A stretch of DNA of 64,000 bases from Acinetobacter defluvii (GTDB lineage: Bacteria; Pseudomonadota; Gammaproteobacteria; Pseudomonadales; Moraxellaceae). This document shows positions 1 to 6,172 of this stretch, piece after piece (the first letter of the stretch is position 1; each line of letters begins with the position of its first letter). Below the pieces are notes generated by a model. It ran no database searches. It was given only the letters and a program-made list of their open reading frames with translations, and had not been told where the DNA came from. Made by a program: the position numbers and the translations under genes. Where the stretch lies: NCBI RefSeq assembly GCF_001704615.3, contig NZ_CP029396.2, positions 291,359 to 355,358 of the forward strand, read 5' to 3'.

Positions 1-1678
1 GATCTCGATACTTAAAACCAAGATCACACATTTTATTAATTGATTCAGCTAAAGCGGAACTTACCAGGTCACCACTTTCTACTGTTCGTATTTCCGGAAG
101 AAAACCTGATGCAGGGCGATTTGCAGTAAGAGCACTGTGTGTACCGCCTGTTTTCATATCTGATGCAAAGCTTGAAAATGATGTCACGATCTCTGAAGCA
201 GAGCGGTAATTAATTTTCAGTGATTGACCTACACTCCCGGGAAAATCATCCACGCAAAAACGCGATATATTAAATGACGAGGCTCCACGAAACCGATAAA
301 TTGACTGCTTTGCATCACCAACGACCCAAAGATTATCACCATATGGTTTGAGAGCCTTTAATAACCTGATACTGCTCCTATTAACATCCTGATATTCATC
401 CACCAATACATGCAGATAATCATGCTGCAACTGTTGACGTAACTCTGCATTAGCCTCCAGCAGTTGTACTGGTAGCATCACTAAATCACCAAAATCTAAA
501 CAATTTTCTTGTTTCTTTATCTTTTCATAAGCTTCGTATACTACAGCAACTTCTAATGCTCGTTCAGCAGTTTCACGTTCTTCTGCACTACTGGCCTTTG
601 CTAGCATATTCTCTGCAAGAATTCGGTACTGTAATGCATCTATCACCTCATCCTTTGCCCGGGAAATAGCATTCAAAATATCGACAATATTTTGAGAAGG
701 ATCGTACAAATCACGATAATGATTTAAATTAAGACGTAAGAACTCCTCTTCCAGAAGTTCTACAGCCTCTGAACGATCCATTAAGCGGGGTTCCGCTGGT
801 AAATCACATAAATCATGAAATCGACGAAGCAGATCAAGGCCAAACCCATGAAAAGTCCCTATCCAAAGAGCCGCTGCCTCATGGGGCTGCTTTCGTGCGA
901 TACGTTCTGATATTTCCGCAGCTGCTTTATTCGAGAAGGTTAATAACAATATCCGTCGAGGATCAACCTCTTCATTCAGCAAACTTTCAACTCTTGCTAT
1001 GAGAGTTCGAGTCTTACCTGTACCTGGACCAGCCTGAAGTAAAAAAGCAGAACCTCTATGATTTACTGCATCATTCTGCTTTTCATTGAGAGGCATCTCT
1101 GGATCAATTTCTTGTGGTTTATTTTCAACCATAGGCAACAGCATTGCATCAAGCATTTGCTGTGCAACAACCTCAAAAGGTGCTCCGAGCTTACTAGCGA
1201 TATCACTACAAGTCATATGGCATTCAAGATGCATTTTTTTAACAACTGAACGCGGAAGCAAGAATTCTCGGGCGAAAAGATCCATCTGAACTTCACGTCG
1301 TTGTCGATGGTTATAATCCACAACGCGACTTATTCCTGATAGTTCAGATTCTGCTGTACGGCTAGGGTCAATACTAATAACATATTCATCTTGTGTATCA
1401 TCTCCTAGCTCAACATGACCAATTTCATGCGCTACAAGAAATGCCTGTTCAAAAGATGAACCAAAATCCTCATGTGTAATTAATCTATATGTGCTATCAA
1501 AGAACGCCCGTGCGCCATTTAATTCATCGGAACATTGTAAACACTTCTCTACGTCAATATCTCGAAACGCAGCTTCAGCAACAGCAAAAGCATAAGAGTT
1601 CCAAGGATCTAGCCCTCTGCCTACAGCCTCATGATGTAGTTTGTCAGCGCGCTGGCGAGCGATCTCGATAGCATCCAT
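1..1678 (-). CDS. ImmA/IrrE metallopeptidase fused to UvrD/Rep-type helicase (partial)
   Basis: The reading frame is open from an ATG at 1678 to the window edge (559 codons), so the C-terminus is missing. The N-terminal part (about residues 1-160) carries the zinc-peptidase motif HEIGH (around 1415-1430) followed by FAREFLLP, which supplies the likely third ligand Glu, as in ImmA/IrrE proteins. The second part is a superfamily 1A helicase: Walker A AGPGTGKT, motif Ic TFHGFG, Walker B VDEYQD, then GDAKQSIYRFRG and the start of motif IV. Known ImmA/IrrE peptidases cleave HTH repressors; UvrD proteins unwind DNA. The gene lies 1 base past the stop of the preceding gene, so translation is probably coupled. 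A role in a DNA-damage or foreign-DNA response is inference. Confidence 0.85.
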   Translation of the reverse strand, partial: MDAIEIARQRADKLHHEAVGRGLDPWNSYAFAVAEAAFRDIDVEKCLQCSDELNGARAFFDSTYRLITHEDFGSSFEQAFLVAHEIGHVELGDDTQDEYVISIDPSRTAESELSGISRVVDYNHRQRREVQMDLFAREFLLPRSVVKKMHLECHMTCSDIASKLGAPFEVVAQQMLDAMLLPMVENKPQEIDPEMPLNEKQNDAVNHRGSAFLLQAGPGTGKTRTLIARVESLLNEEVDPRRILLLTFSNKAAAEISERIARKQPHEAAALWIGTFHGFGLDLLRRFHDLCDLPAEPRLMDRSEAVELLEEEFLRLNLNHYRDLYDPSQNIVDILNAISRAKDEVIDALQYRILAENMLAKASSAEERETAERALEVAVVYEAYEKIKKQENCLDFGDLVMLPVQLLEANAELRQQLQHDYLHVLVDEYQDVNRSSIRLLKALKPYGDNLWVVGDAKQSIYRFRGASSFNISRFCVDDFPGSVGQSLKINYRSASEIVTSFSSFASDMKTGGTHSALTANRPASGFLPEIRTVESGDLVSSALAESINKMCDLGFKYRD

Positions 1679-1679
1679 A

Positions 1680-2246
1680 TCATTCGTCTCTATTTATTAT
1701 CTCTTGAATTCGTTCTTCTGGAATAAGTGCATCATGAAGAATCTTTTCGAAAGATACCTTGCTTGGCGCAGTTGGTTTTACATTAGATTTATAACTTCGG
1801 CTATGTTGTGCTTGTGGTGGTAGTGCAAGAAAGGCCTTCAACTGAGCAGTCGTTACCTGTAGAACTATCGCAAGCCTATTAATAAAATGTAATGGAACAG
1901 ATGACAGTTCAACTCTTCTTACTCCAAAAGCCATTAAAACTTGTTTGGGAAGATTTAATAACTTTGCTGCATTTGAGAAACGCTGTGGAGGTATATCTAT
2001 TTGTTCCGATTGCTGGGTAAGCCCCCTACGAAATCGATCCAAAGCAGACTCAATACTTATTTCATCATCTGGGGTAAGTGGTACACAGTCATCAATTTCA
2101 CGAGACAGCTCGAGTGACAGATCGACTAATTCATTAGAATATTCAGGAAACTCTATGAGATACTTTAGTAAGATATCTTTACTAGAATCAAATTCTACTG
2201 AGAAGTCTCTCAGTACATCCTCACGAGAAATATTTTGATCTCTCAT
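1680..2246 (-). CDS. HTH-like putative regulator of the peptidase-helicase operon
   Basis: This 188-residue protein is not firmly recognised. Residues about 1-50 are acidic and helical. Residues about 90-142 (from FSNAAKLLNL to LKAFLALPP) resemble a divergent XRE-type helix-turn-helix, with the usual pattern of small and hydrophobic positions. The C-terminal tail is basic and then acidic. Its ATG overlaps the stop of the upstream sigma-factor gene (TAATG), and its stop lies next to the start of the metallopeptidase-helicase gene. Partner peptidases of the ImmA/IrrE type usually act on an adjacent XRE repressor, so this protein is the natural candidate substrate. An anti-sigma role towards the upstream gene is an alternative. 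Both are inferences from gene order. Confidence 0.6.
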   Translation of the reverse strand: MRDQNISREDVLRDFSVEFDSSKDILLKYLIEFPEYSNELVDLSLELSREIDDCVPLTPDDEISIESALDRFRRGLTQQSEQIDIPPQRFSNAAKLLNLPKQVLMAFGVRRVELSSVPLHFINRLAIVLQVTTAQLKAFLALPPQAQHSRSYKSNVKPTAPSKVSFEKILHDALIPEERIQEIINRDE

Positions 2247-3022
2247 TAAAATTTCTCCTTATTTTCTAGTTGTTTACGCAATATTGCAAGCGCAAAATCA
2301 CGGTGCGTGCGAATAGTTTTATCTGACTTCTTCAACGTTTTAGTGATTGTCATTTCATTGGGATCTTTCGAAATAATGGGTATATCGTGACACCACATTA
2401 CGACAATACGTTGCTGAAGTGGTGATAAAACATTAATCGCCTCATGTAGACTTCGTCGGTAATATTCTTTGTCAAGTTCATTTGCATCAAAAGGATCATA
2501 GGGTTCTAACGCATTTTCAACCTCTGGTAAGATATTTTCATCTTCACCATATAATCCTTGAGTGAGATTATCTTTATTTTGAATTTTATTTTGTGCATCA
2601 ACTCGGTCTTTAGCTAATGCGCTGTTAAAGTTGACTTCAAAATAATCAAGACGCTCCTCATAACTATCCTGATCCACTAATAGTAAATCGATAAAATCAT
2701 CACGAACTTTATCGCGGATTTCCATATTACTTAAGGAAGAAGTTCTTCCATCTAGGCTATGAGGTTTAGGAAGATTACGATGTATTCTTTCTAAGAGAGC
2801 TAGGAGTAACTTTTCACGAAGCCAAGAATTATCAGTATTTCGAATAAAATAGAGCAATGTTTCACTTGATATAAAACCCTCAATTGATTTTGGCCAAATA
2901 ATACTTCTGGCAACAATCTCCTCATGACTGATTTTTTCTAGTTCATCAATCTCACATTCAACAATACTACGCCGAGTGTATAAAACACCTTCCCTATTAA
3001 CCTTTCTTAGAGGTCTAGCCAT
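2246..3022 (-). CDS. sigma-70-family RNA polymerase sigma factor-like protein
   Basis: About 258 residues. The C-terminal 70 residues look like sigma region 4: LSPLQQRIVVMW, then a helix-turn-helix ending KTIRTHRDFALAILRKQL, the pattern that reads a -35 element. The N-terminal half is acidic and has no clear region 2 that I can identify, so this may be a divergent ECF-like factor or a region-4-only regulator. I chose the ATG at 3022 because AGGG lies about 8 bases upstream; another ATG at 3037 would add MLGCF. It is the first gene of a three-gene minus-strand operon with 1-base junctions and probably sets when the downstream peptidase-helicase is made. Confidence 0.65.
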   Translation of the reverse strand: MARPLRKVNREGVLYTRRSIVECEIDELEKISHEEIVARSIIWPKSIEGFISSETLLYFIRNTDNSWLREKLLLALLERIHRNLPKPHSLDGRTSSLSNMEIRDKVRDDFIDLLLVDQDSYEERLDYFEVNFNSALAKDRVDAQNKIQNKDNLTQGLYGEDENILPEVENALEPYDPFDANELDKEYYRRSLHEAINVLSPLQQRIVVMWCHDIPIISKDPNEMTITKTLKKSDKTIRTHRDFALAILRKQLENKEKF

Positions 3023-3270
3023 AAAGCACCCTAACAACCTTAAATCGATAATTTTTTAACAATTATTAGTAATTAATCTTAAAGAACCAAAATATCTTAT
3101 ATAACAATAATATCAGTTAAAAAATTTAAGAGTTGGTAAATCCATAATCAATTCATGTTATTAAATTTCTATTGTTTAAAAACTTTAAAATTCCACTACT
3201 TTTCTACATCTATTATCAAAAAAATACCTGTTGTACTCAAGCTTGAAACTACAATATTACTAATTAGAGA

Positions 3271-4090
3271 GGCACTGTTGCAAATAGGCTGACATGATAA
3301 GCTAAATATCTTATTTATTTCGAGATACAGCAGATGAATCCCTTCCACGGTCGGCACTTTCAAGGTGAAATCATTCTTTGGGCTGTTCGTTGGTATTGTA
3401 AATATGGCATCAGCTATCGTGAACTTCAAGAAATGCTCGCTGAACGAGGCATAAATGTGGATCACAGTACAATTTATCGTTGGGTTCAGCGTTATGCTCC
3501 AGAAATGGAAAAACGGTTACGCTGGTATTGGCGTAATCCTACAGATTTACATTCATGGCATATGGATGAGACTTATATCAAAGTGAAGGGGCGATGGACT
3601 TACCTGTATCGTGCAGTTGATCAACGGGGTCATACGATTGACTTTTACCTTTCCGCTAGACGGAACAGTAAATCAGCCTATAGTTTTCTAGGAAAGATCT
3701 TCAATACGGTGAAAAAATGGCAAATTCCACGGGTCATCAATACAGATAAAGCAGCGACCTATGGCCATGCTTTATCACGATTAAAGCGAGAAGGAAAATG
3801 TCCAGTAGATATTGAGCACAGGCAGATTAAGTATAAAAATAATGTCATTGAATGTGATCATGGTAAGTTAAAGCGAATCATCAGGGCCACATTAGGATTC
3901 AAATCTATGAAGACTGCTTATGCCACAATTAAAGGTATTGAAGTCATGCGTGCACTACGTAAAGGACAAGCATCGTCATTTTATTATGGTCAGCCTCAGG
4001 GTGAAGTGTGTCTAATCAACAGGGTTTTCGGTCTCTAAGCACTTTTTAAAGGGAACATCATCGACTCAAATCTCTATTTGCAACAGTGCC
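3271..4090 (+). mobile_element. IS6-family insertion sequence (IS1006/IS1008-like), left copy
   Basis: An 820-bp element bounded by GGCACTGTTGCAAATAG at the left and a matching inverted end (ATTTGCAACAGTGCC) at the right. It carries one transposase gene. The two 8-bp flanks differ, so this is not a simple insertion. A near-identical copy in the same orientation lies at 19964-20783, and the two bracket the mercury-resistance block. The right end cuts a serine recombinase gene. Confidence 0.93.
3334..4038 (+). CDS. IS6-family DDE transposase
   Basis: This 234-residue transposase has an N-terminal helix-turn-helix (around YRELQEMLAERG to TIYRWVQRY) and a DDE core: DETY near residue 78, NTDKA near residue 137, and a glutamate in the VIECDHGKLKR segment near residue 173. 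Length and sequence match Acinetobacter IS1006/IS1008-type transposases. These elements move by cointegration and form IS-bounded arrays by homologous recombination. It differs from the 20027-20731 copy at only a few residues. Confidence 0.95.
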   Translation: MNPFHGRHFQGEIILWAVRWYCKYGISYRELQEMLAERGINVDHSTIYRWVQRYAPEMEKRLRWYWRNPTDLHSWHMDETYIKVKGRWTYLYRAVDQRGHTIDFYLSARRNSKSAYSFLGKIFNTVKKWQIPRVINTDKAATYGHALSRLKREGKCPVDIEHRQIKYKNNVIECDHGKLKRIIRATLGFKSMKTAYATIKGIEVMRALRKGQASSFYYGQPQGEVCLINRVFGL

Positions 4091-5810: not shown

Positions 5811-6172
5811 GGCAGACTCTCCGCGTGCTGTGCCGGTTCGGTTGGCATGGCGGCCAGTTGCATTTCGAGGCTGGCCAGGGCCTCGCGCCGACGCTCGACG
5901 AGTTGCCGCAACACGGCAAGCTGCGCAGACGCACCGTCACCGTCCGCAGCATCCAGCGCCCGGCACAGCCGCGCCAGCACATCCAGGCCGATGCCCGCTT
6001 CGAAGGCGGCCCGCACGAAGCGTAGCCGTTGCAAGGCGGCATCGTTGAACAGGCCGTAGCCGCCTGGGGTGCACGCCACCGGCCGCAGCAATCCACGCAG
6101 CAGGTAGTCGCGCACGATATGCACACTCACGCCCGCGTCATGTGCTAAGCGGGAAACTGTATAAGCGCTCAC
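5807..6172 (-). CDS. merD: MerD, MerR-family secondary regulator
   Basis: I place the start at the GTG at 6172, preceded by AGGAGG with 6 bases of spacing, giving 121 residues starting [15 protein letters not shown]. The N-terminal winged-helix resembles MerR ([17 protein letters not shown]). The C-terminal half is a long coiled region ([13 protein letters not shown]... [12 protein letters not shown]). MerD is known to bind the mer operator weakly and help displace MerR so expression shuts down. The longer upstream frame is antisense noise over merB. Confidence 0.93.

Follow-up and report, generated by a model that had tools for sequence, protein, structure and literature searches.

The 64,000-nt stretch analysed here (the window; G000:C8:291359-355358) lies on an Acinetobacter defluvii plasmid and opens with three minus-strand genes that we examine as a candidate controller of a ubiquitin-like (Ubl) conjugation operon. 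They encode a sigma factor-like protein of 258 aa (positions 2246-3022, with the ATG at 3022; the mechanically delimited open reading frame, ORF, begins further upstream at a TTG at 3037), a protein of 188 aa (1680-2246) that is a candidate sigma inhibitor or repressor and a candidate peptidase substrate, and a fusion of M78 peptidase, UvrD helicase and PDDEXK-type domains. The window edge cuts the fusion gene, whose N-terminal part occupies positions 1-1678 and which continues to G000:C8:289653; the complete gene specifies 1127 aa (L002:14254-17637). The sigma and 188-aa genes overlap by 1 nt, and a 1-nt gap separates the 188-aa gene from the fusion gene. The tight coupling of the three genes on one strand, proposed in a first-pass annotation of the sequence, is thus borne out. 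Thirteen listed Acinetobacter plasmids, about 0.3-0.4 Mb in size, carry the first 3300 bases of the window at 99.8-100% identity; every one of the 60 plasmid records matching this segment is from Acinetobacter.

Products of the cassette and of the genes behind it

Three more genes lie 98 nt past the fusion gene, beyond the window. On related plasmids they are annotated as multiubiquitin, ThiF adenylyltransferase and DUF6527 genes; Pfam searches returned Multi_ubiq (E 1.4e-50, in three stretches) and DUF6791 (E 1.7e-54), with ThiF below its own cut-off. Among solved structures, the multiubiquitin Ubl finds bacterial multi-ubiquitin proteins and BilA, and the best solved relative of the adenylyltransferase (E1) is Citrobacter BubCD, through the ThiF part only (profile E 1e-8, single-sequence E 0.006). 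Because multiubiquitin, ThiF/DUF6791 and DUF6527 genes follow them, the three genes in the window constitute the front half of a Ubl conjugation operon. With its multiubiquitin Ubl, BubCD-related E1 and DUF6527, this payload is predicted to be Bub-like. It differs from Bub operons in that the E1 carries DUF6791 in the place of the JAB deubiquitinase domain of BubCD, a domain absent from this E1 by Pfam; JAB-ThiF and E2 versions of the payload stand behind other cassettes (L012, L087, L138).

The product of the first gene resembles a two-domain sigma factor in its predicted structure. An AlphaFold2 (AF2) model (pLDDT, the predicted confidence score, 85) gave fold matches that, judging by the titles of the 50 listed, are sigma factors and cover model residues 41-258. 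The sigma2-like part spans residues 41-157 (2552-2902, minus strand; approximate boundaries, taken from the fold alignment range) and the sigma4 part residues 184-258 (2249-2473, minus strand). Root-mean-square deviations are 12-20 over both domains and 1.4-3.6 over sigma4 alone, the large two-domain values being due to a different placement of sigma2 and sigma4. In this respect the first-pass identification of a sigma protein is upheld by the model.

The 188-aa protein yielded a less distinct picture. Fold searches gave no match at E<=0.001, and a Pfam scan of the window protein returned no helix-turn-helix (HTH) family. A weak XRE-like HTH appears at residues 82-144 (1815-2003, minus strand), with DdrO, ImmR and SinR among its low-scoring neighbours; the N-terminal part gave only low-scoring, mixed matches. 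These data point weakly to a helical N-terminal domain followed by an XRE-like HTH, and to that extent agree with the divergent HTH suspected initially. ImmA and ImmR are likewise a pair of an M78 peptidase and an HTH protein.

The fusion protein has a Peptidase_M78 (ImmA/IrrE) domain at residues 57-174 (1157-1510, minus strand; Pfam E 1.3e-12), a UvrD-helicase domain (E 1.6e-66) and a C-terminal PDDEXK_1 domain (E 1e-7). The M78 HExxH motif is intact, and the helicase motifs are invariant, in 70 of 70 aligned fusions. The peptidase-helicase fusion recognised in the first-pass annotation is therefore genuine, with the addition of a third, nuclease-type domain that the annotation had missed. 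This cysteine-rich domain is probably nuclease-dead, the position of the acidic PDDEXK residue being mostly occupied by arginine. Membership in the Gabija family was considered and rejected: the similarity to GajB and to other defence helicases is of the generic UvrD kind, and no GajA-type OLD-nuclease partner was found by Pfam among the six operon proteins.

Conservation and distribution of the cassette

The M78 N-terminus of the fusion served as query to assemble a locus set from the genome collection: 250 relatives were confirmed and the best 80 kept, so the set is biased to close relatives. Sigma and 188-aa profiles match immediately upstream of the fusion gene, in the same gene order, in all 80 loci (in L040 only as fragments). 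The overlap between the sigma and 188-aa genes is 4 nt in most of these loci; contig ends cut a gene in some. In an independent profile survey of 398 Pseudomonadota genomes, the 188-aa profile was positive in 6, multiubiquitin in 15 (13 over the cut-off) and DUF6791 in 8. The three cassette genes were together in each of the six genomes with a 188-aa gene, and in each a multiubiquitin match lay about 4 kb from that gene (below the Pfam cut-off in G256). Co-occurrence, on which the first-pass grouping depended, is thus the rule rather than rare (80/80 loci, 6/6 genomes).

A recognisable payload stands behind the cassette at 72 of the 80 loci: multiubiquitin, E1 and DUF6527 at 67, multiubiquitin and E1 followed by the contig end at 2, E1 and DUF6527 with no multiubiquitin detected at 2, and a multiubiquitin-E2 type with JAB-ThiF and DUF6527 at 1. 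The payload was not seen at the other 8, five of which are at a contig edge and three of which (L018, L054, L070) have a shortened fusion ORF. On Rhizobium leguminosarum pRLN3 (L011:12083-14939), the cassette is followed by genes for a 165-aa protein, a DUF7665 protein and a diverged ThiF, with a CHAT-domain protein gene next; this may be one more type of payload.

By record title, the hosts are alpha-, beta- and gammaproteobacteria, Myxococcus, Verrucomicrobia, Acidobacteria, Stieleria and one archaeon-labelled metagenome-assembled genome, to which plasmid records add the cyanobacterium Leptolyngbya; the cassette therefore spans several phyla, and it occurs on conjugative plasmids. Of 71 plasmid records with the 188-aa protein, 11 from outside Acinetobacter were viewed. 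The fusion gene follows the 188-aa gene in 10 of them (L009 is cut at the record end), the gene at the sigma position in L153 is annotated with only 50 aa, and multiubiquitin is found by annotation or Pfam in 8 (not in L008, L009 and L011). A phage origin was rejected, as the phage collection held no relative of the 188-aa protein, nor of the fusion at E 1e-40; among viral_contigs, 259 stretches matched the pattern and none was confirmed. A search for E. coli carriers with the Kluyvera genes, run in near-identity mode only, returned no match.

A promoter-like element inside the sigma gene and before the payload

A bipartite element was first recognised in the gaps between the fusion and multiubiquitin genes of 67 loci. 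In the operon of the window, the gap copy (P2; G000:C8:289608-289635) lies 53 nt from the multiubiquitin ATG. A second copy (P1, TTACCG-N17-CGATT; 2435-2462, minus strand), identified by conservation and a codon test, is internal to the sigma gene and precedes the 188-aa gene. Of 72 usable gaps, 68 contain P2, and in 66 of these the CCG-CGAT distance is exactly 17 nt; the misses are L069 and three loci with split or shortened fusion ORFs (L040, L048, L054). A stricter pattern, T[TA][ACT]CCG-N17-CGATT, was searched in the 2.74 million strand-bases of the 80 loci. It matched 137 times: 70 matches fall within the sigma gene and 65 in the gap, and the remaining two belong to the gaps of L040 and L048, displaced behind split fusion genes, which leaves none elsewhere. 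The strict gap site is missing at 15 of 80 loci; contig ends or broken ORFs are responsible for several of the missing sites, internal or in the gap.

The copies inside the sigma gene share one reading frame in 69 of 69 tested, mostly 184-190 nt before the 188-aa start. Synonymous positions at P1 are nearly fixed: 57 of 58 distinct loci use ATT for Ile (890/3709 in the same genes), the Tyr codon is TAC in 49 of 49 (958/1864 in the same genes), and the preceding codon ends in T in 58 of 59. Since it is the choice among synonymous codons that is nearly fixed, P1 is not explained by conservation of the protein. Judging by this footprint, P1 and P2 are putative -35/-10-type promoter elements, dedicated to and cognate with the cassette. 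The first-pass annotation had pictured a self-contained switch releasing only its own operon; that part did not hold, as the cassette is the front half of a Ubl operon and the promoter-like element is repeated before the payload.

Genome-wide, TTACCG-N17-CGATT has exactly two matches in G319, P1 and P2; G246 has three and G000 four, both including P1 and P2. G190 has a single match, at P2; the pattern is absent from the cassettes of G340 and G256, G340 carrying TTTCCG versions. Over 13 genomes there are 23 matches, 7 of them at cassettes. The other 16 equal the 16 of the reversed control; G130 taken alone has 4 against 0 in its control. No match was found at the multiubiquitin gene in seven multiubiquitin genomes lacking the cassette. 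Upstream of six payload loci without a cassette, the best partial scores are 7-9 out of 11, which is within the range of random windows (n=400), most of them reaching 7-8.

Two loci depart from the usual arrangement. In Rhizobium beringeri (L152:4627-13534), two Ubl operons flank one cassette, with the promoter element before both. The second multiubiquitin operon is divergent, on the opposite strand and running away from the cassette, with its own copy of the element 48 nt before its ATG. Four copies with 17-nt spacers between and around the two operons all have the variant CCGAT, and one copy, at 6058 (minus strand), has no Ubl gene directly behind it. At L072 the internal P1 is missing, and a site is found 80 nt before the sigma gene; this site and P2 both have an 18-nt spacer. 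Autoregulation through a TTACCG site upstream of the sigma gene was rejected as a general feature, only L072 having one in the range scanned.

The leaders between P2 and the multiubiquitin ATG (for example L002:14156-14208, minus strand) fold more stably than shuffled sequences in single-sequence folding (mean z -2.44 over 53 distinct leaders, z below 0 in 52). The stem-loop differs in sequence between groups; in rhizobial leaders, CCTTAG could pair with CTAAGG, which contains the ribosome site. A consensus fold on a MAFFT alignment of P2 leaders gave no pairs, one arm probably being shifted in that alignment.

Proposed control of the conjugation operon

On the strength of the conserved cassette, the sigma fold, the promoter-like elements and the intact protease and helicase motifs, it seems reasonably probable that the three genes are a portable controller of Bub-type conjugation operons whose sigma factor is freed by the protease. 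The sigma factor would recognise P1 and P2, and the 188-aa protein, translationally coupled to it, would silence either the factor or its promoters. Damaged or single-stranded DNA would be engaged by the UvrD part together with the cysteine-rich C-terminal domain, and this engagement would activate the fused M78 peptidase, which would cleave the 188-aa protein and free the sigma factor. The latter would then fire P1, upstream of the 188-aa and fusion genes, resupplying inhibitor and protease, and P2, upstream of multiubiquitin, E1 and DUF6527, so that the conjugation machinery is made. Such a mechanism is plausible because CapP is activated by single-stranded DNA and cleaves CapH (PMC13373217), and IrrE cleaves DdrO (PMC7593790). 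We give about an even chance to the more far-reaching proposition that the cassette represents a further, sigma-based class of controller for bacterial Ubl conjugation, in which a protease-carrying helicase reads DNA damage, destroys an HTH-like sigma inhibitor and thereby releases a dedicated sigma factor with recognisable promoters within its own gene and ahead of the Ubl genes.

A number of observations weigh against the proposed controller mechanism. A Pfam search with the window sigma protein found no sigma family at E<=1; its relatives in L007 and L008 score 25.0 and 26.2 bits against Sigma70_r4_2, for a cut-off of 25.7. The 188-aa protein resembles HTH folds weakly, and an anti-sigma fold, looked for in this protein by fold search, was not found and could not be shown since no match reached E<=0.001. 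Strict P1 is missing from 10 of 80 loci, and L011 and L139, the most diverged cassettes, have no strict site at all. L143, a control locus, scores 9/11 for the element, as do or exceed 26 of 400 random windows. When P1 is compared with P2 within each locus, the four bases that follow TTACCG are identical in 148 of 212 comparisons, more often than in shuffles (121.9, sd, standard deviation, 5.1), but this covariation is confounded by relatedness.

Other explanations were weighed against the same data. The 188-aa protein might be a DNA-binding repressor of P1 and P2, similar to CapH or DdrO, which the M78-UvrD protein removes while the sigma factor is active throughout. The XRE-like HTH region of this protein, which matches DdrO, ImmR and SinR among others, is consistent with this, as are the CapH+CapP-like pairs preceding the same payloads. 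On the other hand, P1 and P2 have no conserved operator-like sequence in common beyond the promoter elements, their spacers agree within a locus at a near-shuffled level (190/689 vs a mean of 179.6, sd 7.4), and the 188-aa gene overlaps the sigma gene, as is usual for sigma/anti-sigma pairs. We consider a repressor unlikely. Slightly more doubtful still is the view that the fusion is itself an effector, a helicase acting on invading or damaged DNA that is co-expressed with the Ubl pathway, its M78 domain having other substrates, next to an ordinary sigma/inhibitor pair made up of the sigma factor and the 188-aa protein. The invariant helicase motifs and the generic likeness to GajB and other defence helicases would suit an effector; the constant position of the fusion downstream of the sigma and 188-aa genes in 80 loci, and the arginine that mostly stands in place of the acidic PDDEXK residue, would not.

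It is very improbable that TTACCG-N17-CGATT is a protein operator or an RNA feature instead of a sigma promoter. The structured leader behind P2 could be taken in that sense, but the element consists of two fixed blocks at a fixed spacing and a roughly fixed distance from the ATG, it is linked to the sigma gene, and a copy precedes the divergent payload.

Release of a sigma factor by the protease, as favoured here, would set the cassette apart from known controllers. CapW, CapH+CapP and CapK+CapS are DNA-damage controllers of adjacent immune pathways, and by one published count (EMBO J 2026, PMC13373217) CapW or CapH+CapP accompany 219 of 544 Bub operons and CapK+CapS 59 of 544; the same paper states that phage protection by Bub operons has yet to be demonstrated. 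Like these controllers, the cassette is encoded in front of Bub operons and has a plausible DNA-damage trigger. It precedes the same kinds of payload yet solves the task in another way, with three genes, one of them for a sigma factor that would act positively at promoters of its own. CapP is an M78-type peptidase, as is the HExxH-bearing domain of the fusion, but CapH and CapP are two small stand-alone proteins, whereas the cassette has its peptidase fused to UvrD-PDDEXK and a sigma gene besides. IrrE/DdrO of Deinococcus similarly pairs an M78 peptidase with an HTH protein under a DNA-damage logic; the cassette differs in architecture, in the extra N- and C-terminal parts of its HTH protein and in the added sigma factor. 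With sigma/anti-sigma systems of the extracytoplasmic function (ECF) and sigma-70 types it shares the sigma2+sigma4 fold, -35/-10-type elements and an overlapping second gene, yet the 188-aa gene belongs to no recognised anti-sigma family, P1 is inside the sigma gene and there is no membrane protease route. Some multiubiquitin loci lack the cassette. In two of them, L143 and L148, an M78 protein and an HTH_3/HTH_31 protein are encoded side by side and fit CapH+CapP-like pairs by their domains, and the HATPase_c and winged-HTH proteins of L144 fit a CapK+CapS-like pair; no known controller was found among the one or two neighbours checked at each of L145-L147.

The cassette bears on how bacterial ubiquitin-like pathways are switched on and on their role, be it in defence or in general stress. 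With it come a sigma factor, the sequence of its likely promoter and a candidate sensor; the regulon should therefore be readable from sequence and the trigger testable with a reporter. If the proposal is true, sigma release by a helicase-fused protease would be an unfamiliar route from DNA damage to transcription. The literature searched, which did not extend to the main Bub papers, held nothing tying a sigma or UvrD gene to Ubl operons. The components are of known kinds; that literature did not show them combined, nor a Ubl operon positively controlled by a sigma factor of its own, though an earlier mention may exist. Older comparative-genomics papers may have depicted such gene neighbourhoods, but passages of one of them (PMC1779556) mention neither UvrD nor sigma factors.

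The surroundings of the cassette vary. In the window, roughly 0.3 kb separates the sigma gene from an upstream IS6-like element (3334-4038; IS1008 in the annotation of a sister plasmid), whose insertion might alter sigma expression on this plasmid; a mercury-resistance region lies beyond it. Several alphaproteobacterial plasmids carry a DUF6088/AbiEii-type toxin pair directly upstream (L006:5304-7111, L009:4986-7110, L010:5250-7126, L151:3986-6110). Genes for caspase-family and CHAT-domain proteins adjoin the operon at L007:15555-16528 and L011:14965-16600. On A. seifertii pAS63-1 (L005:15454-18642), a second, helicase-IV-like UvrD protein with a topoisomerase-type zinc ribbon is encoded divergently from the cassette, and the region also encodes a 154-aa protein of no recognised kind.

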